DNA from: a virus | Length of the DNA stretch: 37,833 nt | IMG/VR virus record: IMGVR_UViG_3300021371_000047 | Coordinates: 1 to 37,833 of that record | Direction: 5' to 3' (one strand) | Part shown: positions 4,036 to 35,973 of the stretch, piece by piece | Position numbering within the stretch: the stretch's first letter is position 1 | Layout: each line of letters starts with the position of its first letter | Made by a program: the position numbers and the translations under genes | The notes under the pieces: generated by a model | The model's database searches: none | The model's input: the letters and a program-made list of their open reading frames with translations, nothing else | What the model was told of the DNA's origin: nothing

Positions 4036-4063
4036 ACTGGTTGTTCCTCTGGTTTATTATATA

Positions 4064-4071
4064 TATTTATC
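4064..4071 (-). promoter_or_regulatory. Late promoter box GATAAATA
   Basis: On the minus strand this reads GATAAATA, close to the T4 late -10 consensus TATAAATA. It lies in a 38-nt gap between two fibre genes, 28 nt before the ATG at 4035, with an AGAGGAAC SD between them. Inference: it opens a transcription unit for the 507-aa fibre and the tandem paralogs. Confidence 0.5.
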
Positions 4072-4073
4072 TA

Positions 4074-8957: not shown

Positions 8958-8965
8958 TATTTATT
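8958..8965 (-). promoter_or_regulatory. Late promoter box AATAAATA
   Basis: The minus strand reads AATAAATA in the short gap after the giant gene, just overlapping its stop codon. It is 20 nt before the ATG at 8937, with SD AGGAAAC in between. It matches the core TAAATA of the other boxes in this window. Inference: late promoter for the 204-aa and fibre genes. Confidence 0.5.
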
Positions 8966-11900
8966 AGTTTCCTGCTCTAAGGAAAAATCCGATACTTGTT
9001 TCAGTTTCGGTTATTGACTCGCCTAAACGTTGCCAAATATTACCTTTTTTCCTTACAATCACTATATTCTTTTGTTCAATATTTAATATTGCTGGGCTTT
9101 GTATTACTATTCTTGCATTTTGTTGATTGTTATAATATTCTATTACATAATCTGCAGGAACAATCGAATCTGCTTCAGGTGAGTCAAGTCCAACTGTTGC
9201 ATCAAACTTAGCAAATGGTTTTCCATTTAGTCTAAGACCGTTTACAAATACTTCAAATTCGTCTGTTGACAAAGGTAAGAAGTTTAAGTTTACTGTGCTT
9301 ACATTAGTAGCTGTCTGACTTTGTGTAGTGTCTACGTAAGGTACGTACTTACTAATATCAGCTAAGAATACTTGCTCTCCTTTTGGATGTATATTTGCAA
9401 CACCTGTGCCCAACGTGCCGCGGCGTAGTTGTTTTAACACATTTCCTTCTTTTATAAGATATTCAATGCGCTCTTTATTAATCATAAGCACACCTGGAAT
9501 ATTTTTTGTTCTATCAGGCTCAACTAAGTTTGTTCCGTCTTCAACTTCAATACTTAGGCTTAACTGCGTAATTGGTTTTGCAAGTTTAGTCGGTGGTGTA
9601 TCAATGCGGCTATAGATTGTTCTGTTAAGAATATCTTTAAATATTCTGTAGCGTACTATAGATGAGTCAGCGCCTAATGTATTAACTTGGATATCCAATG
9701 TATCTTGCACTTGTCCTGGAACTAGTTCTTCAACACTTTTACTTGTAGTAGGAGTAACAAAGCTATCACCATCTACAATAATTTCTTCAGCAGTAATGCC
9801 CTTAGCATTAGAATAATTCATATTACCGCCGTCAAGATCTAGATCATAAGTTCTTGCATCATAAAGTATACTACCGTCACTTGTAGTTTTTCTTACTATG
9901 AATGCTACTCTTGATTCATCAGCACCTAATACTGTCGTTGCTTGTAGATCTTCTAAGTGTAAAATTTGAGTACTTCCGTCACCAACTAACGTAAGACATG
10001 TTGCATCAAGATTAGTTTGCTGAGGTGTATCGAAGTTTGGATCATCTAGTCTTCTATTTGTTACAACATTACCGTTTACGTCATAACCGACTCTGTAAAC
10101 ATTATAAGCAACATTGTCTTCTAATGGTTTATTTAAAACAATAGCACTAGAATCATCCATATAGACAATTTCATCTTCTTGTGTATTTTCAATTTCGTCC
10201 CAAATATCGTTAAACCATCCCTTAGTATCCCAACCAAAGTTTGTATCAAATTCAAAGCTCTTAACTTCAACGCCGCCGTAATCAACACCGTCCATAAGTT
10301 GTGCAATATCATTACCAAATGCATTTGCATCTGGTGTATATGCAACTTTTATTCTATCAACTGCATTTAACATATTGATATTTTTAGTATAGTTAATTGC
10401 AATTGACGCATTATTTACTGGTGCTACATCAAACACAATTTGACCTACGTATCTAGTATAACTTCGTGTTGTATCTTTAATATTATATACATTAAACTGG
10501 CTTGCTAGTACTTCTTGATTGTTAACTAAAATACTAATTGTATTTTGATCCAAGTTAGCTGGAAAAATTAAGTCAAAAGTAGTTTTACTTCCTGTACCTG
10601 TAAATGTTTCAATTTTTCTCATATCTTCTGGACTTAACAACGGTGTAACACTATTTCTATCAAACTTAATTGTAGTATTTGCAGTTCTTGCCAACATATC
10701 TCCTAGGACAGCAATAGCTGTTGCAGGAGTACCTGCACTATTAGGCGGTGGAGTAATTTTCACTGTTGGTGTTTGGGTATATCCTTTACCTTTATTCGTG
10801 ATTACAATATTAGTTATTGTTCCGTAGCCTACATATGCTTGTGCTGTTGCGCCAGTACCGTTACCGATAATCTCAACTTTTGGTGCAATAGTATATTCAG
10901 TTCCAGGATTACTAATAATAATTTCAGTAATACTTGCTCCGATATTATCTAACCAATTTTTTCTAGGATATTCGTTTACTAAATCGTTATCAAAAACTGC
11001 TACTCCGTTTTTTAGTTGTACACTTATCGGTGTAACTTTACCAGTGTCTACATTGTAATATACTGGTAAATCAAAATCTGATACTGACGTACTAGCGGTT
11101 TCAATTTTTTGGAAATTACTTATAAACTCTCTTATATTAGTTTTGTAAGGTTTTACTTCCTCGATATATCTTTTATAGTTTTCTAAATTATCTATATTGT
11201 AGGTTAAATCTTGATCTAAATTTCCTGCTAGGTGCTTAACCTTAATAAAGCTAGTTTTGAAGAACCAGTCTGGATTTTGTTCAGTAAGAATATATCTTAA
11301 TGTTGCAATAAATAGTTGATTATACTCTATACGCAAATCTTTAATTAGTAATGCATCACGGATGGTTTCTAGTATTACTCTTAATTCAAATCTAGGATCG
11401 ATATCAAACAAGAACGAATCAAAACTCTTATTATCAAATCCAGAGTTTGAAGTTTCATTTCTATATAGATTATCTTTAAATTGTATTGTGCCGTTTTCTC
11501 TGCCAACAGTTTTATAATCGTTTTCAGTATTAGTGTTTACTTTTTCAAGCAATGACCAACCGCCTGTGCCGACTGAGTTAACTTTTATAATATCCCCTAA
11601 TTTATCGTCAATAAATGATAATTCATATGTGCTATTAATTGTATAATCAGGATTAGTTAATACACTGTATTCTGTATCGTACCAGTCAATATAAGACCAG
11701 TATTTTGTTATATCATAACTTTGTACTTTGATTCTGTTCCATTTTAATTGTTCATTGTCGTAAGCATAAATGCTCCATTTATTATCAACTTCTGAATCAG
11801 ATTCTACAAGTACACTATGTCTTCTAACATCAATTTGTGTTGTATTGGCATAATTCTTGCCGCCGTAAATTACTTCAACTTTTGTAATTTGGCCTAGATT

Positions 11901-14900
11901 ATTTAATCCGATATCAAATCTAGCATCTTCACCAAAGCCATTTATTTTATAAGAAGGTGCAGTTTTATAACCTCTACCTGGATCTATAATTTTAACTTTA
12001 GTAATTTTTCCGTTTATAATAATAGGTTCTAGCTTTGCTTGTTTTACTTTTGTTCCTACTAGCGATAGTTGATCTAATGAATCAATTTTAACGTCATATA
12101 CTCCTGATTCAAATGTCGGTAACGGATCTTTTTGATCTATTGCGCTTATATTAAACTTTTCAATAACTAATTCGTTGCTTAAAACTACATTAACTCTTTC
12201 AATAAATTCTTTAAGAGCTTCTCGTCTGTTTTTAAACATACCTTGTCTAGGTGTAGACTGTACACCGTATTTTTGTTTTTCTGTTAAATTAACATCAGGA
12301 ATAGCTCTATTGTTTACGTCAAACCCAATTAAACTATCAAACCATTTTAATTCAATATCAGCAGATGGTCCGCTAGTATCTAGTCCGTCTGTAATTAATT
12401 TATATGCACTATGACTATTTTGTTTATCAATATTAGTATTACTATATCTTATTGCTAGTACAACGTCAGTGTCATATACAAGCCCGTTGCAGTTATTTAG
12501 AACAATTCTATTACTTGATAACATACTTAGATATCTGTAGCCTTGCTGCCTTGGTACAGCAATTAACCTAGCAATATCTAGTGTTGTAAGAGTTCTATTT
12601 GTTTTTGCAGGAATAATTTTTGCATTCTTTACCCAATAGTAATACTTTTCCGAGAAAGTTTGACTTTGTTCGTTAAAAACAAACTTCTTACTATACTGAG
12701 AATCACCATATAGTGTTTGTCCTGTAATACTTTGTGCTATTCCATCAGTTGTTTCTGATAGTTCATCCCATTCACTCGGAAGGTAATCAGTTTCTACCCA
12801 TTCGCATACATCAACAGTAGCACCTGGTTGTAATTCATTCCAGTTGTCTCGTTGATAATTGATATCACCTTGGTATGGATATGTAAATGTAGACGTACCG
12901 GTATTCCACCACACCATTCCTACATGATTTTCTTCCCAATAAAATGTATTAGCAGTATCACCAACATTATAATATGCTGGATCAAATGGTACTTTGAAAT
13001 TAATATTCTTATCTGCAGGTCCTGCAATTTTTCCTTGGATAGGATCAATATAATCTAAGTAAGTAATAATAGAATTTGTTCTTTTATTATATAAAAATGC
13101 ACCTTGTATTTTATCAAGGTCAACCGGGTGTATTAATTCTCTGCTTACATTCCAACCACTAGAATTAACTTTCTTTCTGTAATCATATAAGCCACCAACA
13201 TAAACATTGTTTTCTTTTGCCGGAACGCCTACATATATATGATTTGCATTAATAAGAACTTGCTCCCTAAGTTCTTTAGTAACATTATCATACGGAATGC
13301 TTTCAGCAAATATAAATTTATTTTTTACTTGTTCGTAAACATAAATTACACCAGGATCATAATTAACTTTTTGGAATTCAGTTTGGTCTAGATCAAATAA
13401 AGTTTCGTCTGCATCAAAGATAGTTGTTGTAAGGACTATGCCTGCAAAACTTGCAATCGATAATACGTTATCACTAAATGACAGCGAGTAGCCAAAGTTT
13501 AATGATACTGAATTTTTTGGAGGCTCTAATGTTTGTGTTAGTTCATACGTTCCGTTTGTATTAGTGTATAGGTATACTTTTCCTACATTTGTTCCGTTAT
13601 CGCTGTTGTGCGGTTCAGAAATTGCTAGAAAGCTACCGTCTGTACTAAAATCATACGACATTCCAAATTCAGTTCCGCTAACAGGAGGTCTAATTGTTTG
13701 AGACTTGATATACTTTCCTGAAGTTGTACTACCGTATATACGAATTTCGTTTGTTACTGTGCTATCTAGAGCAATATTAGATACTTTTACAGCAAGAGCA
13801 GTTGCAGTATTGTTTAACACAAAATTATCAATACGAACATCGTATCCTGTATTTGCAACAGGTTTTAAATAATTTTGATATGCAACGTCAGCTGTAACAA
13901 CCCATAATGCATTTGTAGCCGAAGGTGCTTGACCGTTTGGTGCAAAGTTAGATTGTGCCACATAATACAAATCATTATGCTCTACAATATCACCAATTCT
14001 ATAGTCGTGTACAGTTTGCCAACTTCCTTTATAATTAGTGTCAATTATTCTTCTCCAACTTGTAGGCTTGAAGGCATTTAAGTTGTTAATTGATCCGTCT
14101 GTTTGATCTGCAGGTGTTAGTGTTTGTTGTATTTCATAGTACTTTCCGTAATGGAATACAATGTCTCCTACGGAATACGACAATGTTCTATTCCAGTTTC
14201 CTCTAAATCTATTTTCGCTTAATGGACTATTTTCAAAATATTCAATGCTATAATTACTTGCTGCATATAGTTTGTAACCAGTATCTGTAGAAATAATTTT
14301 TACTGTTTTGCCAAATTGTGCATTAGGCATACCAAAAGATTGCTCACTAACAATCTGAGCAACTCTTACATACTGATCCGGAGCAGATTTATAATATATA
14401 ATTACTAATCCTTGATCTTCGACTCCATTGTCAAGTGTTGCACTTGATTTTACTGCATCACCTTCTGGTGTGCTAATGTTATAAACTTGTTTCCAATTTC
14501 TGTTTAAAGAGCTAGGCGTGTCTGCTTGAGTTGGTGCACCAGCAATGCTAAATAGTTCTGTATAAAAATAATATTCTTTATTAATAAGTGTTGCTGATTG
14601 ACTAAATGCAAATGCATTCTCAGCTTCAAATACTAAAAACTTTCCAATATTAGTCCCTGTTGGAACTATAACACTGTTTGAATAATCAATCTGATTATTT
14701 ACTGTGCGGATTCTGCCAATATCTGCATTGCCGCGCTCTCTAATTAATCTTACTGACTGTACGTTTTGTTTAAGTTGCCAATCTCCTTGTGTAATCTTTA
14801 TGTAGACTCGTCTACGATTACCTTGTGTGCTACCAAAAGTTTTTACATGCACTACTTCAGCTTTATTAAATGGTGCTAATGGAGTTTCACTTACTAATAA

Positions 14901-17900
14901 GTTTGTATCAAGAGCAAATTGTTGATCAATAATAATATCACCAACTTCGAACTCCTGCTCACCAATTTGAGCAACGTTTACATCATTTTCAAAGTCAATA
15001 TATCCGTCCCATATATCAATAATTGTTTGTTCTTTATTTAAATCTTCAAATGTAAATCCAACTGTAGAAATTTCGTCTGACGAATCATCATTTTTATTCA
15101 TGTAGAAATTAAAACTATCGCCTATTTCTGTAGTAAATTCTTGTCCAACTCTTACTAAAAATTTATTACTTAAATTGTCAGGAGAACTAATTTGTTCAAT
15201 CATACTTGCTCTACGATTTTCTTGTAAAAAATCACCAATTAATAATTCAGTGTTGCTTATATTATAATATGTATTTCTGTTTTTTGTTTCTTCGCTATAA
15301 TTTTCTTGCTTGAATAGATCAGCATATACTAAACCTTTGCCTTCTTCAAAGTAAGTTTCACCATTATTATACTGTGCTACATCTATTTTCCAGAATCCAT
15401 TAAATTCTTCTTCAAATCCGTATTCTACTTTATTATAATCACCTAATAATTGTATTTCATTTGTTGTTTGATTTTCTACATAAGCAGAACCAGATGCATT
15501 AAGTACACCTTTGATATCTTTTAGATATACAACTGCATTACTTGCATCAATTGCTACATAGTCGACTGTTGCTGTACTTGCTCCAAGATTAGTTGTAAAT
15601 AATCTTACAAAATCGCCAACTGATGGTGTTTTAGCAATACTAGTAATAGTAATAATTGCTTCTATTTTAGATGCAATTGTATGATTATTTTCAATTACTG
15701 CTTTATCAAGTCCGCTTACAGAATTGTTCCACGGAGAATATACTATATTGTTATTAAGTTGTGTCTTTTCATTCCATTTAAGACTTATTACGTCACCAAC
15801 TGAACTACCTTGGAACATATCCGTAGGTGCTCTTAGTATAAAATGATCTACATTAGTATTTGCTAATCCTGGATTACCAGTACTTAGTAAATTTATATTT
15901 GTATCTGTAGTGCGATCAATAATCTGTGTGTAATTATCAAACGTACTAAATGTAGTTGCATCTTTTTTACTATTAATACTTGTGTTTGCTTGCCATAATG
16001 TTTCTTTGTGTTTTACAATATCCCACTTGGTGTAATTTTTTGTTTCTGCAAATTCACCTTTATAAAAAGTTTTTACTGCGCTTGCATTTGGTACGCCAAC
16101 TGCTAGATATTTTCCGTCGTGTGATGCAGAAATACTTTCGCCATAATTTGATTCAGTGCCGTCATAAAAATCATTAGAATTACCTAGTGTTTGTGCTAAT
16201 CCTAAATCATCGTTATCTTGATTACGTCTGTAGTAGAACACTTCGCCGCCATCGCTACTAGGTGATGACACATATACTTCTTTGTTATCAGCAGTAACTG
16301 AAATCGACTTTGTAAATTCTTGATCAATATCTGCTAGGTTAGAAGAATCTTCTAAATCATTTGGATTGTATTCTTGTGTAACTGAATTATAAACTGGCTT
16401 GTTGTCTAATACTGCCCATGAGTTATTTTCATAGTTGTCGATCCAAACTCTTTGATTGTCAAAAATACTATTTTGTGCAATGTTATTATACTGATCAAAA
16501 TCTTCTACTCTTACAGTTCGTAGTACACTTAAACTATATTCTTCATCTGTAAAATCTAAAAATTCATTTGTTTCAGGTATAGCAATAACAATAGTTTCAT
16601 AGTCAATTGTTACTACTTCAAAGTAACCGTATACAGAATAAAGTTGTGCACCAGTAATTGCAATTAAATCTCCAGCTACAATTGAATATAGTGAATTTTG
16701 TCTAACTGTAAGTGTTGCTGTTGTTCTATCGAATTCGTCTAACTCAGTATTAACAAACATTTCTCTTACAACAAATTGACTATCTACAATTTGAAATACT
16801 GTCCAATCGTTGGGTGTTTTATCCGTAATCCAAATATACTCGCCTGCTGTAAGTTGATTATTATCAATTACTTTAAGGTCGCTAATTGATTGTGTTTTGT
16901 ATTCTACATCATCTTCGTGTACATATCCTCGGCTTTCGGTAAATTCTTCTAATACCTTTGTTGGAAATAATTCTTCAGTAGTATCAATCGGTTTATCTAA
17001 TAGTTCGTGTGTGCGGACTCTGTATACTGTGTCAAATACATCATTAGGCATATAATCTAAAATTTCAATTGCTTGTGGTGATTCTCTAAATTTAGATTCA
17101 TCTAGTGGTATTTCTATTTGTTCAACGTTTTGATATGCACCATACTTGCCAACTTGCACTGCCCATTCTTCAAATACTTCAACGCTGTTAGATTCGCCTC
17201 TTAAACTATTAAAGAAATTATCAATAGAATTCATCGTACCTTTATCTTGTAACATACCTTGATAAAATTTATACTGAGATACATCATCGTTAATAATATT
17301 AGCAAGATAATCACGCTTTTGATATCCGATTAAATGCTGTGCTAATTTATTTTGTTGTTCGTCAAAACCGTCGCTGTCAATATCATAATAATCTGCAAAT
17401 TGATTAATTCTATAATCAAAGTTTGTAATTAATTTAGACTCTGGTTTATCGTTTAGTCGTGTCCAGTAAGAATAATCAAAATCTTTTGTACCCGGAGCAT
17501 TATATTTGGCAACATAATAAAATTCTTTGTTCTTTACAAGACTACCAATTTGGTAATCCTGCCATGGTTCCCATTCAGTTAGTTCTGCATCATCATAAAC
17601 AAATCCTGGAATATTTAAACTACCATTCCAGTTGTCACTTCTATATCCAATCAACTTTAAACGTTCTTGTCTATAACCAGTACTAGGCTGATAAATTAAA
17701 TCGTTAAACACTGTTTCGTTATCAATAATTACAACATGTTCTTTTTGTACAAGTGGTAATTTTACATTATAAATTCCATTATCAGAATTTTTAACTGTTA
17801 AACTAAAACTGTTATTGTCACGTAGAATACTACTAAACTTTCTGTTTAATGGCTGTGCATTTTCGTCAAGTAAACTATATCTATAAAAATTATCATATAT

Positions 17901-20900
17901 ATCATCAACAACTGTAAAGTCTCTTTTAAATTCAACTTGAAATGCTGCTGGGCTTAATGCAATTGATGTGCCATTTGCCCATCCTTGCGCAGTCCAAGCT
18001 AAAAATTCCTTTGCTGCATTTGTCCAGTTAGTAATTGTTTCGCTTTGTTCGTCAACATAGTTAAATTCAAATCCGTTAACTTCTAAATATCGTCCATAAC
18101 CTATTAATAAGTCTATAACGTCTTGTAACGTTTTTAAAACAGTGCCGTAGTTTATTTCTAAAACAGTATTATACTTAAATTCTTTTTTAATTGTTCCCCT
18201 AGTTCCACCTACTGTTGGAATTTCAGGAATCTTTGTAATATTATCGTTTGTAAATGTATTTCCACTAGTAAAATCACTTGTAGCACGATATAGATTAGAA
18301 TCATTTACAATGATTTGTCCTTTTACATAAAATTGTGCAGGTGACCAATCTACTGAAGTTTCAAGTGTACCACCAATAACGATATTTGCATCTCTATTTG
18401 TTGTTACAGGGGCATAATATTTAAACGATGGCTCGTCATCATTGTAACCACTTACTATATAACCAGTTGTTGACTTTTCAATCTTTACTCCGCTGTATAC
18501 AATACTGTCAACAGGTGAACTTGTATTTGTATACACAGTAATATTTTCATCTGGTACAAAAATATTAGCAGTATTTTGCGCAGCTGGATTTTTACTATCT
18601 AACACAATGTTTAATTTTGTCTTATCTGTATATCCTGCTAATCTAAATGCAACTTTATTTTCTATTGATCGTATATCAGTTTGAAATTCGTCATAAGTTT
18701 TTAATACGTTACTTCCGATTAGAGCATGTATAAAGTTTACAACTCCGCTAGTTAATACCTTAGTTGTATCTTCATATGTATTAGGAAATATTAAATTTTC
18801 TAGTTCAACATGTCTGCCTGTGTTAGAATAAACTATTTGATTTGCAAGATTTTTTGTTGTTCTCGATACATCAAATCCTAATGCTAAGAATTTAGCAGGC
18901 TGATTTAGTAGCATAGCTTTTACTAAACTAAACGGATATTCACTACTGTTTCTCCATGCTGCTTCTACTGGTGCATTATCGCCAAATTTAAATGCGCTAT
19001 TAGTATCCCTAAGAACTGTGTTTTTTGCATATCCGCAACTAACGGGAGATAATAAATGTCCTTGAGAATCTACAGGAATAATACTAGTTAATCCCGGACG
19101 TGCATATTTTTCATTAACTTGTATTAATAAATTAGGATCTTTAATTCTACCTTCTTCTAAATCTTTCCAAAGTATATTATTGTTACTTGTATATGGTGCT
19201 TTACCATAAGTGTCTTCCCACCATTTTGGTTTAATTGTTAAACCAAGCATTTCCCAAGGATGTGTATGAGGACGATCAGTATCATATAATTCTAAAAATA
19301 CACCTCTCCAATATCCTGGCAAAAATGCACCATCAATAGAACTAGTTGACTTGCTATAATTAAACGTAAATTGGTCTTGACTAAAATAAAATTTATTAGA
19401 AGTATAATCTATGCCAATATTAGTATTCCATGTGATAAAGTCTTTAAGTAAAATTCGATCTAATTTAGACTTATTAATTCCTTTTCTAAATTTACCGCTT
19501 ACAAAATCATCTTTATTAAAAATATTTGCATTATAATTTGATTTAATATTATTAAAAATTCTTTTTTCTAATTCTAAAAGTAGATTGTCTCTGTAATCTT
19601 CATATGCTAAAATTCGGCTACCGTCATGTCCAATAATTATTGCTTTGCCAACTGGATATACTGGTATAGACAAACTTGCGCTTTTAGAGCATACATACAA
19701 AGATTTTGGTGCAAAATAAATTCTGCTACTACCGTTTATTTCAACTTGAGTTACTTCGCCATTACTGTCAGCAAGTTTTGCCGCAGAGCGATCAACATAT
19801 AAAGGATAGAACCATCCTACTTTTTTACTAGAAGTGTTTTGACCATAAAGCTGATAAGCATCTGCTGTGTTTATTTGATTTTGATTTGATAACCATTCAT
19901 CATCACGAACAATCTGTGGTTCATAACTAGGGTATAAGCCTAGTTTTGTTGGTGTAGGCGGTACATACGAACCATCCGTATTATTATATTCGTAAACTTC
20001 TACTACATCATTAATTTGTTGTGCAACTAAAAGTTGTAGAAAACTTTCGTCTGTAAAAATATAATCTTTGTTATGAATTAATTGTTCGCCGTTAAAATAA
20101 ACTAACACTGAGCTAGTATTAAGCGTTTTTAAATTAAAATTTGTGCTTAATGGATAATAAGTATTTGCATCATCAAATATGACATATTCATTTCTTATAT
20201 GTCCTTTGTATCCGATCATATCTGAGAAATAGAAAGGCTGTGTTTTAGTTTTATCTTTGTTTAGCTCTTTGATAATTGCATCAACATGCTGTTTTACTTC
20301 ACCGTCAAAACCTAATGTTTCTGAAGTTTGTAAAAAGTTTCGTTTAAACTTATTATATTCTCTCATAGAATATTCTATAGATTTAATAATATTGTATTTT
20401 TTATCTAATGTAAGATACATTGGTAAATTAAGCGGACCTGAATGTTTTACAAAACGTTTGCCGAAGCGATCTAAATCGCCTAAATCTTTTAAGTTGCTAT
20501 ATCCTGGATAAACACCATCGAAATCACTAAGGTCGTCTATCATAGTTTTTACATGATCATTAACTTCGCCTAATGTAAATGTAGATACGTCAGCATTTAA
20601 CGGATTTTTTTCTAAATTAATCGGAAACTCGTAATATCCATTTTCGTTTTTAGAAGCTGACGATTGTGTTTTTATAACAACTAAATCGCCCACTTCTACA
20701 TTATTAGAAAATTCAACTATCAGTCTATTATTATTTTTTATAAGTGTATATAGATTTTTATTCTGTATAATATTATTAACAAACACTTTAACATTTAAGT
20801 CAGTAATATTTGTAGCATTATCATAAACGTCAATTTCAAAACTAGTTTGTTGATTAATTGATGCTTGATATTCTCTAACTACTGGTTGCTTTGATACATA

Positions 20901-23042
20901 TGGTATACTACTCCAACCGTTTGCATATTTAAATTTTTCTCTAGATATATATTTTTTAAGAAATCCTGTTTTTGTAAATATGCTGTTTGTTGTTTCTTCT
21001 AACTGGTAAGTAAATGAATCAGATTCTAAATTAAAGTCAAAAAGTATATCGCCAGTATTGTCAATGTTTCTATAAGATAACGGAAATCCTAGTTCACTAT
21101 CAACAGTTCCGGTACCCTGTTTATAAGAAAATAATTTTGTTCCAGTAAAAGTAGAACTGTTATAAATTTCCATATCACTAAATGCATCACCCGAAGGTGA
21201 ATATAAAGCAAACATTGGTGGTTGATTTATTTTTGTTTTTTCTTGTGCTTCTTTCCAACCGTCTCTATAGAAGTATACCTTGCCCTTATTTTTTGTACCT
21301 TGCTTAACAAGTACATTTTCATTTTCTAATGGCAAAGTGTCGTTTGTTTCTATTAAACTAATTAAATTATCATTAACTATTCTTACAAACTTAACTTCGT
21401 AAATTTTTCCTGTTACTCTGATATCAGTATCAGCAGTAAATAAAACACGCATGCCTTCAACTAGATCTACTCCGTCGATATTATAGCCTTTGCTGCCTTC
21501 AATAGTTGAAAATACATCTGTTGTAAATGTATCAATTAAATCAATGTCTTTCTTAAACTCTGTGCCATACTGATATAAATGTAAGCCAGGCTCAAATTCA
21601 ATAATTGGTCTGGAAGCTTTTGTAGTTTCGTCTACATCATTGGCAAAATTATTAAAAATTGCACTTTGTTCAATTACTGATTTATGGAACCATCTATTAG
21701 AACGTGCCCAAGCATTACCATCAGCACTTGCTCGATTAATTGTTATATAATCTTTTAATGCCGGATAACCTGTTGCAGTTGAATACGGTAATCTGTCAAA
21801 TTTATCAGTATCATATTCAATTACCTCTGTTTCTGTATATGCCTGTGGAAGTATTAAATCGTCTTCTGCAATTAATTGTATACTTGTGCCTACTCCGTCG
21901 ACATAATAATTGCCTTCAGCAAAATGTTCAGGAGTAGTTTGTCCTCTAAAAAATACTTTTAATCCGTTTGTAAATTTAACACCGTTAGCACTTGAATAAG
22001 TTTTTGCGCCGACAATTTCATCACGTACATTTAGATATGTATTTTCTTCAATATCATAAATTCTAAATTCTCCGCTCATGTCAATATCATTAGAATTTAT
22101 ATAATATAATTTATTTGGGGCATTATATGGAACAGTAAATTCAATTGCGCCTTTTGTCATATAGATGTTGGCTATTTCTTCGCCTGCGTCACCTAGCTTC
22201 TTTATTCCGTCAGGATAAAGTGTACTTACGTTATCTGAATCTTCAAATGTTACGCCGCCTTCTTCTGGAAGTATAATAAAATCTCCCGCATCAAATTCTG
22301 CACCAAACAATTCAGCATCAAAAAGGCCATCATTACGTATGCCTTCCTGTGTTGCAACAATTACTGCATTACCCGGAGTAAACGATCTTGTAATTGCAAT
22401 AGCAATTGGGTGATGTGGACAATCTATTTCAAATCTATATTTTTGTCCTCTAAATAATTTTACACTTGGATTACGTGCTAGTCTATTACTGAACACATAT
22501 GCATAATTTCCGCCTTGATCTTCAGCTGTAATTGTATATGTACTAGTTACTTCTTCGCTTTGGCCTTCAACTGGAACACTTAGCGGACCATTCGGTAACC
22601 AATAATACTCTCTAAAATTAACAAATTTGTCCCAATCAATATTTGGGTTCCAAGGATATGATTCTTGTTCATTAATTACACTATGGTCACTTACATCAAC
22701 ATTAAAAAACTTTAATTGATTTATATAATCGTTATAATCTTTAAAGAACTTAACATTGTCGACATTATCTTTAATAACAACACCTGGTTCTAATTGATAA
22801 GACTGGCGCTGTGTACTTATTTCTGGAATATATGTATCTGTGCTTCTAAAACCTTTGGCTGTTTTTCTGCCTACATATCCGCTTAATTTTTCTGCTACAC
22901 CTGGCTGTATTAGTTGATCAATTGTTGCTTGTAAAAATTTTAAATTTGCTTCTGATCTAAAAAATCTAGGAAGGAATCTTGCACTCTGTCTTTTATCGTC
23001 ATTAGGAGTTGGTAACCCGAATTCGCCCTGTGTATTTGCCAT
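8964..23042 (-). CDS. Giant multidomain virion structural protein (4692 aa), probably baseplate-associated
   Basis: One uninterrupted frame of 14,079 nt, 37% of the window. The N-terminal ~135 residues (FLPRFFRSEANLKFL, SGYVGRKTAKGFRS, FREYYWLPNGP) look like a docking region. Residues ~187-332 resemble a cupredoxin-like fold with lost copper ligands. Five W...Y..GDIV modules, similar to carbohydrate-binding CBM5/12 motifs, start near residues 1564, 1822, 2329, 2948 and 3006. Propeller-like repeats (YGESISASHDGKYLAVGVP and FGMSYDFSTDGSFLAISEP) lie near 2237-2333 and 3057-3205. GxGYxxxP repeats occur near 3670-3740 and 4040-4100. The start overlaps the gp6 stop (TAATG) and has SD GAAGGAAG. It sits where T4 has genes 7, 8 and 10; a gp7-like wedge role combined with host-surface binding is inferred, not shown. 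Confidence 0.9.
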   Translation of the reverse strand: MANTQGEFGLPTPNDDKRQSARFLPRFFRSEANLKFLQATIDQLIQPGVAEKLSGYVGRKTAKGFRSTDTYIPEISTQRQSYQLEPGVVIKDNVDNVKFFKDYNDYINQLKFFNVDVSDHSVINEQESYPWNPNIDWDKFVNFREYYWLPNGPLSVPVEGQSEEVTSTYTITAEDQGGNYAYVFSNRLARNPSVKLFRGQKYRFEIDCPHHPIAIAITRSFTPGNAVIVATQEGIRNDGLFDAELFGAEFDAGDFIILPEEGGVTFEDSDNVSTLYPDGIKKLGDAGEEIANIYMTKGAIEFTVPYNAPNKLYYINSNDIDMSGEFRIYDIEENTYLNVRDEIVGAKTYSSANGVKFTNGLKVFFRGQTTPEHFAEGNYYVDGVGTSIQLIAEDDLILPQAYTETEVIEYDTDKFDRLPYSTATGYPALKDYITINRASADGNAWARSNRWFHKSVIEQSAIFNNFANDVDETTKASRPIIEFEPGLHLYQYGTEFKKDIDLIDTFTTDVFSTIEGSKGYNIDGVDLVEGMRVLFTADTDIRVTGKIYEVKFVRIVNDNLISLIETNDTLPLENENVLVKQGTKNKGKVYFYRDGWKEAQEKTKINQPPMFALYSPSGDAFSDMEIYNSSTFTGTKLFSYKQGTGTVDSELGFPLSYRNIDNTGDILFDFNLESDSFTYQLEETTNSIFTKTGFLKKYISREKFKYANGWSSIPYVSKQPVVREYQASINQQTSFEIDVYDNATNITDLNVKVFVNNIIQNKNLYTLIKNNNRLIVEFSNNVEVGDLVVIKTQSSASKNENGYYEFPINLEKNPLNADVSTFTLGEVNDHVKTMIDDLSDFDGVYPGYSNLKDLGDLDRFGKRFVKHSGPLNLPMYLTLDKKYNIIKSIEYSMREYNKFKRNFLQTSETLGFDGEVKQHVDAIIKELNKDKTKTQPFYFSDMIGYKGHIRNEYVIFDDANTYYPLSTNFNLKTLNTSSVLVYFNGEQLIHNKDYIFTDESFLQLLVAQQINDVVEVYEYNNTDGSYVPPTPTKLGLYPSYEPQIVRDDEWLSNQNQINTADAYQLYGQNTSSKKVGWFYPLYVDRSAAKLADSNGEVTQVEINGSSRIYFAPKSLYVCSKSASLSIPVYPVGKAIIIGHDGSRILAYEDYRDNLLLELEKRIFNNIKSNYNANIFNKDDFVSGKFRKGINKSKLDRILLKDFITWNTNIGIDYTSNKFYFSQDQFTFNYSKSTSSIDGAFLPGYWRGVFLELYDTDRPHTHPWEMLGLTIKPKWWEDTYGKAPYTSNNNILWKDLEEGRIKDPNLLIQVNEKYARPGLTSIIPVDSQGHLLSPVSCGYAKNTVLRDTNSAFKFGDNAPVEAAWRNSSEYPFSLVKAMLLNQPAKFLALGFDVSRTTKNLANQIVYSNTGRHVELENLIFPNTYEDTTKVLTSGVVNFIHALIGSNVLKTYDEFQTDIRSIENKVAFRLAGYTDKTKLNIVLDSKNPAAQNTANIFVPDENITVYTNTSSPVDSIVYSGVKIEKSTTGYIVSGYNDDEPSFKYYAPVTTNRDANIVIGGTLETSVDWSPAQFYVKGQIIVNDSNLYRATSDFTSGNTFTNDNITKIPEIPTVGGTRGTIKKEFKYNTVLEINYGTVLKTLQDVIDLLIGYGRYLEVNGFEFNYVDEQSETITNWTNAAKEFLAWTAQGWANGTSIALSPAAFQVEFKRDFTVVDDIYDNFYRYSLLDENAQPLNRKFSSILRDNNSFSLTVKNSDNGIYNVKLPLVQKEHVVIIDNETVFNDLIYQPSTGYRQERLKLIGYRSDNWNGSLNIPGFVYDDAELTEWEPWQDYQIGSLVKNKEFYYVAKYNAPGTKDFDYSYWTRLNDKPESKLITNFDYRINQFADYYDIDSDGFDEQQNKLAQHLIGYQKRDYLANIINDDVSQYKFYQGMLQDKGTMNSIDNFFNSLRGESNSVEVFEEWAVQVGKYGAYQNVEQIEIPLDESKFRESPQAIEILDYMPNDVFDTVYRVRTHELLDKPIDTTEELFPTKVLEEFTESRGYVHEDDVEYKTQSISDLKVIDNNQLTAGEYIWITDKTPNDWTVFQIVDSQFVVREMFVNTELDEFDRTTATLTVRQNSLYSIVAGDLIAITGAQLYSVYGYFEVVTIDYETIVIAIPETNEFLDFTDEEYSLSVLRTVRVEDFDQYNNIAQNSIFDNQRVWIDNYENNSWAVLDNKPVYNSVTQEYNPNDLEDSSNLADIDQEFTKSISVTADNKEVYVSSPSSDGGEVFYYRRNQDNDDLGLAQTLGNSNDFYDGTESNYGESISASHDGKYLAVGVPNASAVKTFYKGEFAETKNYTKWDIVKHKETLWQANTSINSKKDATTFSTFDNYTQIIDRTTDTNINLLSTGNPGLANTNVDHFILRAPTDMFQGSSVGDVISLKWNEKTQLNNNIVYSPWNNSVSGLDKAVIENNHTIASKIEAIITITSIAKTPSVGDFVRLFTTNLGASTATVDYVAIDASNAVVYLKDIKGVLNASGSAYVENQTTNEIQLLGDYNKVEYGFEEEFNGFWKIDVAQYNNGETYFEEGKGLVYADLFKQENYSEETKNRNTYYNISNTELLIGDFLQENRRASMIEQISSPDNLSNKFLVRVGQEFTTEIGDSFNFYMNKNDDSSDEISTVGFTFEDLNKEQTIIDIWDGYIDFENDVNVAQIGEQEFEVGDIIIDQQFALDTNLLVSETPLAPFNKAEVVHVKTFGSTQGNRRRVYIKITQGDWQLKQNVQSVRLIRERGNADIGRIRTVNNQIDYSNSVIVPTGTNIGKFLVFEAENAFAFSQSATLINKEYYFYTELFSIAGAPTQADTPSSLNRNWKQVYNISTPEGDAVKSSATLDNGVEDQGLVIIYYKSAPDQYVRVAQIVSEQSFGMPNAQFGKTVKIISTDTGYKLYAASNYSIEYFENSPLSENRFRGNWNRTLSYSVGDIVFHYGKYYEIQQTLTPADQTDGSINNLNAFKPTSWRRIIDTNYKGSWQTVHDYRIGDIVEHNDLYYVAQSNFAPNGQAPSATNALWVVTADVAYQNYLKPVANTGYDVRIDNFVLNNTATALAVKVSNIALDSTVTNEIRIYGSTTSGKYIKSQTIRPPVSGTEFGMSYDFSTDGSFLAISEPHNSDNGTNVGKVYLYTNTNGTYELTQTLEPPKNSVSLNFGYSLSFSDNVLSIASFAGIVLTTTIFDADETLFDLDQTEFQKVNYDPGVIYVYEQVKNKFIFAESIPYDNVTKELREQVLINANHIYVGVPAKENNVYVGGLYDYRKKVNSSGWNVSRELIHPVDLDKIQGAFLYNKRTNSIITYLDYIDPIQGKIAGPADKNINFKVPFDPAYYNVGDTANTFYWEENHVGMVWWNTGTSTFTYPYQGDINYQRDNWNELQPGATVDVCEWVETDYLPSEWDELSETTDGIAQSITGQTLYGDSQYSKKFVFNEQSQTFSEKYYYWVKNAKIIPAKTNRTLTTLDIARLIAVPRQQGYRYLSMLSSNRIVLNNCNGLVYDTDVVLAIRYSNTNIDKQNSHSAYKLITDGLDTSGPSADIELKWFDSLIGFDVNNRAIPDVNLTEKQKYGVQSTPRQGMFKNRREALKEFIERVNVVLSNELVIEKFNISAIDQKDPLPTFESGVYDVKIDSLDQLSLVGTKVKQAKLEPIIINGKITKVKIIDPGRGYKTAPSYKINGFGEDARFDIGLNNLGQITKVEVIYGGKNYANTTQIDVRRHSVLVESDSEVDNKWSIYAYDNEQLKWNRIKVQSYDITKYWSYIDWYDTEYSVLTNPDYTINSTYELSFIDDKLGDIIKVNSVGTGGWSLLEKVNTNTENDYKTVGRENGTIQFKDNLYRNETSNSGFDNKSFDSFLFDIDPRFELRVILETIRDALLIKDLRIEYNQLFIATLRYILTEQNPDWFFKTSFIKVKHLAGNLDQDLTYNIDNLENYKRYIEEVKPYKTNIREFISNFQKIETASTSVSDFDLPVYYNVDTGKVTPISVQLKNGVAVFDNDLVNEYPRKNWLDNIGASITEIIISNPGTEYTIAPKVEIIGNGTGATAQAYVGYGTITNIVITNKGKGYTQTPTVKITPPPNSAGTPATAIAVLGDMLARTANTTIKFDRNSVTPLLSPEDMRKIETFTGTGSKTTFDLIFPANLDQNTISILVNNQEVLASQFNVYNIKDTTRSYTRYVGQIVFDVAPVNNASIAINYTKNINMLNAVDRIKVAYTPDANAFGNDIAQLMDGVDYGGVEVKSFEFDTNFGWDTKGWFNDIWDEIENTQEDEIVYMDDSSAIVLNKPLEDNVAYNVYRVGYDVNGNVVTNRRLDDPNFDTPQQTNLDATCLTLVGDGSTQILHLEDLQATTVLGADESRVAFIVRKTTSDGSILYDARTYDLDLDGGNMNYSNAKGITAEEIIVDGDSFVTPTTSKSVEELVPGQVQDTLDIQVNTLGADSSIVRYRIFKDILNRTIYSRIDTPPTKLAKPITQLSLSIEVEDGTNLVEPDRTKNIPGVLMINKERIEYLIKEGNVLKQLRRGTLGTGVANIHPKGEQVFLADISKYVPYVDTTQSQTATNVSTVNLNFLPLSTDEFEVFVNGLRLNGKPFAKFDATVGLDSPEADSIVPADYVIEYYNNQQNARIVIQSPAILNIEQKNIVIVRKKGNIWQRLGESITETETSIGFFLRAGN
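13945..18353 (-). repeat. Five dispersed W..Y..GDIV surface-binding-like modules in the giant protein
   Basis: Five ~28-residue segments share the pattern W-x(5-7)-Y-x-x-G-x-[IL]-V-x(6-7)-[LY]Y-x-A, for example SWQTVHDYRIGDIVEHNDLY and NWNRTLSYSVGDIVFHYGKY. They begin near nt 18353, 17579, 16058, 14201 and 14027. The pattern resembles CBM5/12-type carbohydrate-binding modules common in phage fibres. The last two are nearly adjacent (58 residues apart). Binding is inferred. Confidence 0.55.
22047..22484 (-). other. Cupredoxin-like domain inside the giant protein
   Basis: Residues ~187-332 show NPSVKLFRGQKYRFEID, then HHPIAIAI, an NDG turn, GAIEFTVPYNAPNKLYY and DMSGEFRIYD. This is the strand order of cupredoxin-like domains seen in phage structural proteins. 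The usual C..H..M ligand set reads N..D..M here, so copper binding is probably lost. Confidence 0.5.
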
Positions 23043-26000
23043 TAGTAGTTACTTCCTTCGTCATTATTATTTGCAACATTATTTCCTATTGGATTATATG
23101 TTACTGAAGTCGCATCGTTTGCACCTGTGACTATTGCTGCGCCAGTATTTTGTACAACTGTAGTTGTTGCACTACTACTTGGTAAAGTAGTTGGTGCATT
23201 TGTACTTCTAGTTTGTACACCTTGCATTGTACTTGATATGCTTGTAACAACTAGTCCTGATGCTTGTAAATTAGTTGCTGTATGCTCATCAATTATTTCA
23301 ATATCATTTACTGTTGCAGCACTTAAAAATATTTCATTAGATTCTGATTTTATTTCAAACAAACTACCAAAAACTTGATCGACCTGCTTTGGTACAACAA
23401 CTATGCTAGATAAGTTAGGAGATAAATTATTCATAATATAAGAACTTAATTCTTGGAAATAAAATGTATCACCAAAGTCCCAATTTTCAATTGCAAAGAA
23501 TTGATTTATTAATTGCACGATTGTAGACTTTAATTGATTATTATTAACTGCAACACCTTTGTTTTTAACAACTTTAAATGTTACTTGTAATCTTGAATCA
23601 GCCTTTTCGCCAAATAACATTTTATATGTTACTGGATGAAATACTACTTCGTCGCTTATACTTTTTATCTGGTTTATACTAGCACCATAGTTTCTAAATA
23701 GTTCATCAGAACTAGGAGGCAAAGGTAAAGATGTGATTCCGCCGTTTACATATTTTCTAACCTGTGTGTCATAATCTTTTGTAAGAACATATGTATCTAA
23801 AATATTACTACTTGCTGGATCAATTCTATAATTAGAATCTGCAACATGCACATAATGAAATTTTAATCCAGCTCTGCCAATAAATGCTCTATACTCGTCT
23901 GTAATTGTCATGTTATTTTGTGCTTTATTAAGGACTTTAAATAAATCAAAGTCTACTATATAAAATACTTGTCCATCAACTTCGGCATTTACGTTAATTG
24001 GATCAAGCGCATCGTTTTGTCTTACTTTAACAATGCCCTCAGAATTATCAAAATACTTATAATCTTGTACGCCGTCTACTGAGCTATACTTCTTTTGGAA
24101 TATAAATCCAGTTTCATCAACGATTTCTTTAAACAGTTCGGGATTATCTGAAATTCCATCATCGTCGCTGTCATAAAAAGCTAACTGTACACGACGAGTA
24201 TCATTATATCCTTCTGAGTCTTTGTATGCATCAGAAATACTCCAGTCAAAATCTTTATTAAAAGCACCGAGACTATTTGGTTTTGTGTTAATGTTTAAAA
24301 TAGTAATTTTGTCTTGTGCAATTTTACCTGTTTTTGTATCATATACCTTATCAGCACTATCAAAGAAAAATCTTACCTCTGAATCGCTTTCAAATACGTA
24401 TCTTAAGTTTCTATAACTTACATTAAATGTTTGTCCGTCAGTTTGAAAATAAAATACCCAACTATTATCTTGATTAGATCTAGAAATATCTCCTTGACGT
24501 TGTAAACTAAACGGTGCATATGTATTTAGATTATCACTAGTAATAAGTTTCCACTCACTTGATGTCTGATCAAATCTTAATGCAAAATCTTTATAAGCAA
24601 ACGCTCTGTCAATAATTTGTTTTTTTACATCGTCTACAATAGCAGTTGAATATTTTGGTAAAATTTGATTTAGAATTGCGCCATTTGGAATTACATCATT
24701 AAACACAATAGGTCCAAAGCCGTCATCATCAACAACTGTGCCATCTGCATCAATTGATTTTACAGTAGTCCATACATAATCACTGCTTCCTTCGTGATCT
24801 GCTGTGCCTAACATTAGTTTACCATTTTTCATAAAATGATATCCTTCTGGAGCTGTAAATTTACACATTGCTCCAGTTTTAATATTTTTTAGTGCATTAG
24901 TTGTATATGTACCTACACTATAAACACTAGATGCTGCTTGGTTTCCATTAGCACTTGTAAAGATTTCTGCTAAGTCTAGAATTTGTTCAAAATATCCTGT
25001 TGATCTGTTAGTCTTCGAAGTAGTTTGTCTCCATACTGCATTAAGGTCAGTAGTGTTTACTTTGTCAAAGTTTTCATTGTAGTAATTTTGTACACTAGTA
25101 CTTGCAATTCTGCGTTCAACTTGACTGTAAATGATACCTTCAATATCTGATTGTGTTGTAAATGAAAAATTAAAGTTTTCTAAATATTCTTGTCTATACA
25201 AAACTCCATCAGATGCAAATAAACTTGTAGTTGAATATTTTCCAGTTGGATCTGTTAAATCAAAGTATCTACTTATTCCACTTGAAATTCTATTCACTGT
25301 TTTTGTTTTTATAATATCTTGATCAATTCCTAAAGGTCCAATATTATAATCTTCAGCTGTTACTAGTCTGTTTTGAGTGTAATAACTTGCAGGAGCATTT
25401 TGTTTTATATCTTCGGTAGTTTCGCTAGGACGCCCGTTTGACACTGTATTTTTTAAGCTAAGACCAATTGTTAATGTTTCTTGTGCATTATTTTTGCTAA
25501 TGTACGGAATTTGTATTGTAATAGATTGCAGACTACCAGGATTAATAACCATATTTCTATTATCACTAGTTCTGTAATATGTTCTAAAATTACCAGTTGG
25601 TAAATTACCAAATACACCATCGCTAAACACTAGATTAATTCTATCGTCTGATCTTGTTGAAACTGCATAAACATCTTTGGTATCTTTAAACAAACTATTA
25701 TAGATAATATTGTTTCCTTCAACCGATTCTAATTTTTTCCACAACGCAGATTCAAAATTATTTGAGTCAACTGAATATAGCCATATATCTGAATTGTTAA
25801 TATTAGTGTCATCTATTCCTACAATTTGGTTAGGTACCGGATTACCGGTGCTAAAAGATGCATTTTCAAGTTGTCCTTGTTTAAAGTGCATAAAGAACCC
25901 TGTGTTAGAACTTCCAGCGCCCTGGCTATCGTCTCTATATACAAATGCAGGATTATTACCAGGTAATGGTGCTTCTTCTACAATAGTTTCGTTTTCGATC

Positions 26001-26653
26001 CCTGTACTAACTATTTCAAAACGTGTGTTTACGCCTTCTACTGGCTTGCTAAATCCAAACACTGGAATGTCGGTGTTTAGAGCATTAAATCTATACTGTT
26101 CTGTCACAACGCCTTCGATATTTGCTGTTATTGTAGGTGATCCAACTCCTTCTGCATTCGGAAGGGCTGCATTAATAATCTTAACAAATTGTTCAAAGTA
26201 ATTTGGGTTTGCTCTATCGTTCCATAAAATAGTAGATCCACGTAAATTTTTACCTGTACTATCAATAAGGTTTTCTGTTGTAGATACTGTTTCAAACTTT
26301 AGTAAGCCTGATGCAGCTTTGTTCCTTTTTGGATTATAAGAAATAAGTTTTGCAAGTCTTAATACGCTTTCTCTGCGCTCTGCTGTCTCTAAGAAATTTT
26401 CTCTAGCATTTAGGTCAATTCTGAAGGATAAGTTTTGTCCTAAAAATGCAATTAAATCAATTAGCGCAAGATATTCTGAACTTTCGATATAGTCATTAAA
26501 ATCCTCTGGATAGTTTTGACGCAAATAGTTAATCATTGTTCTGCGTAGATTGTCAAAGTCATAGCTTTGGAAATCTGCGTTACTAAAAGATTGATAAATT
26601 TTCTTCCAATCTTCAGTAGCAATTACTCGAGATTGTCTATCGGTTGATGACAT
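23042..26653 (-). CDS. gp6: Baseplate wedge protein gp6 (baseplate J-like), 1203 aa
   Basis: T4 gp6 forms the ring of the baseplate wedge around the hub. The T4-type N-terminus is clear: DFDNLRRTMINYLRQNYPED (residues 33-52), YLALIDLIAFLGQNLSFRID (61-80) and LNARENFLETAERRESVLRL (81-100), ending SYNPKRNKAASG. Near residue 421 is RLVTAEDYN, the hallmark of baseplate J proteins. Residues ~1016-1090 carry the conserved C-terminal part with NWDFGDTFYFQELSSYI. At 1203 aa it is nearly twice T4 gp6 (660 aa), with the extra length in the middle and a low-complexity Ser/Thr/Asn tail of about 60 residues. SD AAGGAA precedes the ATG, and a late-promoter box lies 24 nt upstream. Its stop overlaps the giant gene's ATG. 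Confidence 0.93.
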   Translation of the reverse strand: MSSTDRQSRVIATEDWKKIYQSFSNADFQSYDFDNLRRTMINYLRQNYPEDFNDYIESSEYLALIDLIAFLGQNLSFRIDLNARENFLETAERRESVLRLAKLISYNPKRNKAASGLLKFETVSTTENLIDSTGKNLRGSTILWNDRANPNYFEQFVKIINAALPNAEGVGSPTITANIEGVVTEQYRFNALNTDIPVFGFSKPVEGVNTRFEIVSTGIENETIVEEAPLPGNNPAFVYRDDSQGAGSSNTGFFMHFKQGQLENASFSTGNPVPNQIVGIDDTNINNSDIWLYSVDSNNFESALWKKLESVEGNNIIYNSLFKDTKDVYAVSTRSDDRINLVFSDGVFGNLPTGNFRTYYRTSDNRNMVINPGSLQSITIQIPYISKNNAQETLTIGLSLKNTVSNGRPSETTEDIKQNAPASYYTQNRLVTAEDYNIGPLGIDQDIIKTKTVNRISSGISRYFDLTDPTGKYSTTSLFASDGVLYRQEYLENFNFSFTTQSDIEGIIYSQVERRIASTSVQNYYNENFDKVNTTDLNAVWRQTTSKTNRSTGYFEQILDLAEIFTSANGNQAASSVYSVGTYTTNALKNIKTGAMCKFTAPEGYHFMKNGKLMLGTADHEGSSDYVWTTVKSIDADGTVVDDDGFGPIVFNDVIPNGAILNQILPKYSTAIVDDVKKQIIDRAFAYKDFALRFDQTSSEWKLITSDNLNTYAPFSLQRQGDISRSNQDNSWVFYFQTDGQTFNVSYRNLRYVFESDSEVRFFFDSADKVYDTKTGKIAQDKITILNINTKPNSLGAFNKDFDWSISDAYKDSEGYNDTRRVQLAFYDSDDDGISDNPELFKEIVDETGFIFQKKYSSVDGVQDYKYFDNSEGIVKVRQNDALDPINVNAEVDGQVFYIVDFDLFKVLNKAQNNMTITDEYRAFIGRAGLKFHYVHVADSNYRIDPASSNILDTYVLTKDYDTQVRKYVNGGITSLPLPPSSDELFRNYGASINQIKSISDEVVFHPVTYKMLFGEKADSRLQVTFKVVKNKGVAVNNNQLKSTIVQLINQFFAIENWDFGDTFYFQELSSYIMNNLSPNLSSIVVVPKQVDQVFGSLFEIKSESNEIFLSAATVNDIEIIDEHTATNLQASGLVVTSISSTMQGVQTRSTNAPTTLPSSSATTTVVQNTGAAIVTGANDATSVTYNPIGNNVANNNDEGSNY

Positions 26654-26709: not shown

Positions 26710-27150
26710 TTATTCAAGCATTTGTTTATCAAATTTAAATAACATTTGTTCTGATATATTATAAGGCAAAAACGTTAATAATGCACTTACTTCTATACCA
26801 TCTTCAGTTGTATCAACAAATACCTGATCTGCGGTTACCCTATCATCATAGTTTATAATTTCAGCTACATCAGCAATTATAGCTTCTTTGTTTTCAGTTG
26901 TAAATGGTTCGTAAAGCATGTCCCAAATAATTGTTCCAAAATTCGGATCGCTTAATTTTTCACCTTTTCGAATATGAAAATGATTTATAATATCTTGTTT
27001 AATAAGATCAAAATCGTATAATGCATAACCTTCAACATTTTCATTAATACTAGAAAATCCTCTATATGCACTTCCTTGAGTTACAGATTGCGATCCTCTA
27101 TTTGTAGAGACTGTAACTCTTTTGTAAAGATTTTTTTCTAATGTACTCAT
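26710..27150 (-). CDS. gp25: Baseplate wedge protein gp25
   Basis: The 146-aa product carries the GPW/gp25 core: a helical DFDLIKQDIINHFHIRKGEK segment (residues 46-65), then SDPNFGTIIWDMLYEPFT (67-84), helix ENKEAIIADVAEIINYDDRV (87-104) and a closing strand pair EVSALLTFLPYN. It is close to T4 gp25 (132 aa). gp25 anchors sheath polymerisation and joins gp6 and gp53 in the wedge core, and gp6 is the next gene here. The start follows the gp5 stop by 12 nt with only a weak AGGTAA SD, so translation probably depends on coupling to gp5. No oddities in the core residues. Confidence 0.95.
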   Translation of the reverse strand: MSTLEKNLYKRVTVSTNRGSQSVTQGSAYRGFSSINENVEGYALYDFDLIKQDIINHFHIRKGEKLSDPNFGTIIWDMLYEPFTTENKEAIIADVAEIINYDDRVTADQVFVDTTEDGIEVSALLTFLPYNISEQMLFKFDKQMLE

Positions 27151-35679: not shown

Positions 35680-35973
35680 TTAGATTCCTAAACTTTTTTG
35701 TAAATTATTACCTTGAGGAAGATATATTTTTGTTCCTGCTACAAAATCAAATATTGGATCTTTTAGTATGTTCATATTTCTTTGTGCAAATACCCACCAA
35801 AGATCTTTTGACCCATACAGATCATTCGCTAAAAGATCAGGTCTATATGTGTAAACATTTGTAATTTCATATAGTATATCAGTCGGTGATGACGGAACTG
35901 GTCTCGGAGTAAAAATATCTAAATATCCTGCTGCGGTAACTTCTGTTGATCCATAAAAACTAAGTGTTGACAT
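35680..35973 (-). CDS. gp53: Baseplate wedge protein gp53 (short form, 97 aa)
   Basis: The product has the conserved gp53 core: ITNVYTYRPDLLANDLYGS, DLWWVFAQRNMNIL and DPIFDFVAGTKIYLP. This is also a LysM-like layout ending in a TKIYLP strand. It is half the length of T4 gp53 (196 aa) but keeps the part that recurs in marine T4-like phages. gp53 clamps adjacent wedges and binds gp25 and gp6, which are encoded downstream. The start overlaps the upstream stop (TAATG), so it is translationally coupled to the tube-cap-like gene. Confidence 0.88.
   Translation of the reverse strand: MSTLSFYGSTEVTAAGYLDIFTPRPVPSSPTDILYEITNVYTYRPDLLANDLYGSKDLWWVFAQRNMNILKDPIFDFVAGTKIYLPQGNNLQKSLGI

Follow-up and report, generated by a model that had tools for sequence, protein, structure and literature searches.

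A 4692-residue virion protein encoded directly after gp6 and its possible place in the phage baseplate

In T4, gp6 is followed by gp7, and the question raised by this locus is what occupies that place when the next frame runs for 14 kb. The window, by which is meant the whole of a 37,833-base IMG/VR record, is probably a piece of a larger phage genome, since the genomes of relatives are 287-490 kb. The original prediction was that the frame encodes a single virion protein made of adhesion-like modules that may replace several T4 wedge proteins, namely gp7, gp8 and gp10. The explanation favoured here, and considered probable, is that the giant is a gp7-type baseplate wedge subunit of greatly increased size, with docking, propeller and sugar-binding-like modules. 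The giant and the baseplate genes identified near it are as follows.

8964..23042, minus strand: giant virion protein of the PHROG 10938 family, 4692 aa, ATG start
23042..26653, minus strand: gp6, baseplate wedge, 1203 aa (PHROG 10646 'baseplate wedge subunit', E 2.7e-293)
26710..27150, minus strand: gp25, baseplate wedge (PF04965 above cut-off)
35680..35973, minus strand: small baseplate wedge subunit, gp53 type (PHROG and annotation of relatives)

The gp6 label and the position of the giant directly after it were both upheld; the ATG of the giant overlaps the gp6 stop by one base and gp25 lies upstream of gp6. The giant is a real gene and no assembly artefact, since two close relatives (L012 and L021) keep 4,692 of 4,692 codons aligned with zero indels and show the pattern of purifying selection. 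Codon position 3 changes more than positions 1 and 2 in every 600-codon block of both, the variable middle included, and for L021 the change per block is 0.33-0.43 at the third position against 0.08-0.21 at the first and 0.05-0.10 at the second. The frame is under purifying selection along its whole length, but it is not exceptional for a phage as had been claimed, such a length being ordinary in a lineage with hundreds of relatives.

The giant is a long member of a family that is already known and is widespread in jumbo phages. Its conserved core scores 1061.9 bits, in six stretches, against PHROG 10938 'virion structural protein'. Searches of phage records by tblastn found relatives in 59 with the N-terminal half as query and in 57 with the C-terminal half. 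In IMG/VR, a pattern scan based on a single segment of 1,200 residues turned up at least 453 relatives, of which 80 were retained; a separate scan there for near relatives of Paride turned up none. Complete relatives from IMG/VR and isolates have 3,138-5,330 residues, while the frame of one (5,457 residues) runs past its contig end. Giants of this kind are therefore found in hundreds of viral contigs, catalogued merely as "virion structural protein", and BFVD already holds a split predicted-structure entry from an uncultured phage with 41% identity over 577 columns. The jumbo proteins of PHROG 10938 (GAP32_230, RaK2 ORF070, CBB_236, phAPEC6 gp245, Paride_0436 and Atu_ph07 gp180) share homology with the window protein across most of three regions, residues 1-150, 430-2000 and 3290-4000, and are likewise single giant frames, usually after gp6; the window protein differs in its greater length (4692 aa against 3326-4449) and in carrying the cupredoxin, propeller and CBM inserts. 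The giant directly follows gp6 in Paride, Atu_ph07, Phosso, GAP32, RaK2, CBB, Vibrio phage 2.275, RAS14 and XacN1; the sole exception among the relative regions examined is SCTP-2, in which it is far from gp6. A second giant gene of 3,096 aa immediately precedes the giant of SCTP-2 (L006, 8624-17914), also distant from gp6.

That the giant is a virion protein is supported by its relatives. The CBB homologue CBB_236, whose gene has 10,023 bases, was represented by 21 peptides in mass spectrometry of purified virions (PMC5259590), and 17 unique peptides from purified phAPEC6 virions belonged to gp245, a 381.9 kDa protein whose gene follows that of a wedge protein (PMC7247149) and which, from size and position, we infer to be a homologue. 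Both phages bear hair-like tail fibres of unassigned origin (PMC5259590, PMC7247149), and the giant could in principle form a tail whisker or a long tail fibre; that is very improbable in view of its gene position and its docking and wedge-type domains, and in CBB a different protein, CBB_226, is annotated as a long tail fibre subunit.

An alignment of 54 members (marine relatives and seven jumbo isolates) showed conserved blocks at residues 1-150, 430-960, 1130-2000, 3290-3640 and 3760-4000 with inserts between them. The main blocks and the first insert are listed here.

22593..23042, minus strand: residues 1-150, conserved N-terminal module, in all jumbo relatives by the conservation profile
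22035..22553, minus strand: residues 164-336, cupredoxin-like fold (VIA-align Z 10.0 to nitrite reductases, rmsd 2.5-2.7)
17043..19655, minus strand: residues 1130-2000, best-conserved core of the family
12123..13175, minus strand: residues 3290-3640, second part of the conserved core
11043..11765, minus strand: residues 3760-4000, third part of the conserved core, partly helical

Predicted models cover residues 1-1130 and 3560-4692 with medium confidence (mean pLDDT 65 and 70), and residues 1-150 are poorly modelled (pLDDT about 40). The cupredoxin-like fold that had been proposed was recovered in the predicted model at residues 164-336. According to the alignment this module is mostly missing from jumbo isolates, and copper chemistry was rejected because the Cys/His/Met copper ligands are not conserved in the alignment columns. 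Comparisons with solved structures yielded little; phmmer with the giant gave zero matches, a profile of the N-terminal segment gave none and one of the C-terminal segment gave a single weak tailspike match (E 0.045). Foldseek against the PDB gave one match below E 0.001 for the N-terminal model, a baseplate chain of a KP1 variant with a low TM-score, and nothing below that value for the C-terminal model. No gp7 chain was listed for either, which excludes nothing; the KGT block considered below is outside the modelled segments, as is the propeller region.

The repeats and surface-binding-like modules are the following.

18213..18347, minus strand: residues 1566-1610, CBM5/12-like motif copy 1, loose pattern
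17457..17573, minus strand: residues 1824-1862, CBM5/12-like motif copy 2
15918..16037, minus strand: residues 2336-2375, CBM5/12-like motif copy 3, loose pattern
14073..14195, minus strand: residues 2950-2990, CBM5/12-like motif copy 4
13902..14021, minus strand: residues 3008-3047, CBM5/12 domain, top Pfam match
13143..16280, minus strand: residues 2255-3300, FG-GAP-type propeller region split by CBM modules
11808..12110, minus strand: residues 3645-3745, GxGY repeat common to cyanophage giants
10683..10955, minus strand: residues 4030-4120, second GxGY repeat

The five W..Y..GDIV motifs of the original prediction are present as three strict copies and two found by a looser pattern, against 0.01 and 0.1 expected from shuffling, and in the middle segment Pfam CBM_5_12 scores above its cut-off (38.2 bits against 26.2) although the whole chain, at 22.4 bits, is below the cut-off. 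The domain occurs in the middle region of 16 of 30 relatives. Propeller-like repeats are likewise real in the family, with Pfam FG-GAP_2 below cut-off in the window giant and present in 27/30 relatives, and GxGY was found in two strict copies where 0 were expected. Residues 2100-3300 are the most variable part of the giant family, and the propeller region within them is poorly represented in jumbo isolates. The giant does then carry surface-binding-like modules, namely CBM5/12 domains and FG-GAP propeller repeats; the module types were confirmed, whereas the term 'adhesion-like' reads fold types and observes nothing, and the CBM5/12 domains may bind carbohydrate. In Vibrio phage 2.275 (L007, 9995-13858) the annotation places a CBM5/12 domain in gp6 itself, so sugar-binding-like modules also enter other wedge proteins.

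A further class of module, predicted from profiles and folds, is of the kind by which tail proteins dock.

20643..20870, minus strand: residues 725-800, T4 gp10-like docking domain (hhalign 62%, E 7e-5)
19965..20135, minus strand: residues 970-1026, T4 gp10-like docking domain (hhalign 66%, E 6e-5)
10371..10631, minus strand: residues 4138-4224, docking domain of T7 gp17 / CBA120 TSP4 / T4 gp10 / T4 gp6 type (VIA-align)
9042..9326, minus strand: residues 4573-4667, possible second C-terminal docking-type domain (VIA-align Z 5-6)

The domain at residues 4138-4224 gave VIA-align Z 7-9 to T7 gp17, TSP4 and T4 gp6 and Z 7.6 to chain 9f4b_FA, and a gp10-sized baseplate chain of a KP1 variant is among the proteins with this fold. 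Profiles and predicted folds weakly support docking domains like those of T4 gp10 and T7 gp17, a beta-sandwich type that T4 gp10, the T7 gp17 N-terminus and CBA120 TSP4 would have in common with the giant, but unlike any of these the giant would have several copies inside one chain.

Whether gp7, gp8 and gp10 have all been replaced by this one chain is a separate matter. Complete jumbo genomes contained nothing convincing for the T4 gp8 profile (phrog_977), which finds both T4 and S-T4, or for the T4 gp7 profile, a weak negative given that this profile finds T4 and misses the S-T4 giant. Separate gp7 and gp8 genes, the presence of which would have told against replacement, were thus not found in the complete jumbo relatives searched, the gp7 result being the weaker. 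Together with the gp10-like domains in the chain, this is what a replacement of all three would lead one to expect. That is nevertheless improbable, for phrog_977 does not match the giant and none of its segments has gp8 similarity, the gp10 profile finds the gp10 C-terminal domain in Paride in a different gene, located downstream of the giant, and in the window the genes after the giant encode a collar-domain fibre (5957-8323) and two proteins whose N-terminus is related. The functional idea is accordingly supported in part, by the gp7 position and a weak KGT motif, while replacement is unsupported for gp8 and doubtful for gp10; the gp7-type role is the most likely part of the idea. The three successive proteins at 2512-8323 (minus strand) share an N-terminal segment, NENF..LLENF, with a look of the T4 gp10 N-terminus, which may be the attachment part of paralogous fibres. 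In the fibre-like protein at 2512-4035 (minus strand) there is a weak match to Peptidase_G2 towards the C-terminus, at E 4.5e-5 and narrowly below the cut-off. Peptidase_G2 is an autoproteolytic chaperone domain.

A precedent for a giant in the gp7 place is known from cyanophages. In S-T4 gp6 is followed by a 4,749-aa protein annotated 'baseplate wedge subunit' and then by gp8, and that protein's N-terminal core is firmly homologous to T4 gp7 (hhalign 98.2%, E 4.9e-14). Virions of S-CREM2 contain a wedge protein of ~1,940 residues encoded in the post-gp6 place, with 91 unique peptides (PMC10665884). The cyanophage giants (S-T4 HOU04_gp197, PHROG 2885) share with the window giant the position, a similar length, GxGY repeats and a possible KGT core, but the gp7 core is N-terminal in them and central here, and pairwise BLAST similarity is nil except for a weak repeat match. 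The candidate core is a single short block.

17148..17390, minus strand: residues 1885-1965, putative gp7/gpI wedge-core motif with invariant KG(T/S)

This block, with the sequence FYQGMLQDKGT, falls within a part of the protein where conservation is among the highest across all relatives. When 115 overlapping segments were compared with the cyanophage gp7 core, three over residues 1885-1965 ranked first, the best at 25-50% probability (E 2e-4 to 8e-4) and the next segments at 2-5%. The same segments came top, in identical register, against a P2 gpI profile built from diverse gpI proteins in verified frames (14%, E 2e-3), and reversed-profile controls scored below the real profiles. After correction for the number of segments this sequence link to gp7/gpI is suggestive. 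Direct comparison of the segments with a T4 gp7 profile left the block unranked. The T4 gp7 profile phrog_964 does not match the giant, but the cyanophage giant, itself homologous to gp7, escapes it as well; PF09684 does not match either, uninformatively, as it misses T4 gp7 too. The gp7-like wedge family phrog_17744 matches T4 gp7 and the S-T4 giant and nothing in the jumbo genomes. Similarity to T4 gp7 and gp10 is found as a weak gp7/gpI-like motif and gp10-like docking domains and not with phrog_964, phrog_977 or the gp10 profile phrog_958, an HMM that has no match in the giant. T4 gp7 and P2 gpI resemble the window in a gene order of the gp25-gp6-gp7 type and in a possible KGT helical core, but at 1032 and 176 aa they are far from 4692 aa and a direct profile match is absent.

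Counted in favour of the gp7-type wedge subunit are the post-gp6 position, the S-T4 parallel, the KGT ranking, the docking, propeller and CBM domains and the virion presence of relatives; counted against it are the unmatched phrog_964, a similarity that lies mainly in the short KGT motif, and the SCTP-2 gene far from gp6. The last point, which leaves the giant of SCTP-2 without gp6 as a neighbour, would suit a peripheral baseplate or fibre-network protein, such as a branched-fibre hub, that is no gp7 homologue, with the true gp7 a small unrecognised gene elsewhere. Docking and binding-like modules do make up much of the chain and gp7 can be as small as 242 aa, as in XM1 gp17 (PMC10457771), yet the gp25-gp6-giant order is constant in the other lineages examined and parallels T4 and the cyanophages, and the KGT block is within one of the most conserved parts, so that such a hub is rather unlikely.

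If the giant is indeed an enlarged gp7, it would, by analogy with T4, be the partner of gp6 in all six wedges. The helical core around residues 1885-1965 would pack against gp6, fibres and further peripheral proteins would be anchored by the beta-sandwich docking domains, and the variable middle would project outward, its propeller blades and CBM5/12 modules making contact with the host surface. A bolder version, possible but tentative, is that one polypeptide fuses the gp7 wedge core, several fibre-docking domains and an outward propeller with sugar-binding modules, which would make the baseplate scaffold itself a sensor of the host surface, its middle evolving fast between phages. Were the giants expanded gp7 wedge proteins, the missing gp7 of these jumbo phages would have been found, and baseplate and host-binding functions could be tested in culturable relatives (GAP32, CBB, Paride).

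Two other genes of the window bear on its tail. The hub protein at 27163-30078 (minus strand) belongs to the PHROG tail lysozyme family and weakly matches an OB domain, and its C-terminal stretch, with the motifs HDYGSAADIYI and IHIDIVG, has by eye the look of an M15-type peptidase rather than of a lysozyme. Beside it an 819-aa protein (30095-32554, minus strand) has a lysozyme-like stretch at residues 160-355 (PHROG 90 endolysin) and is possibly a second cell-wall enzyme in the baseplate.
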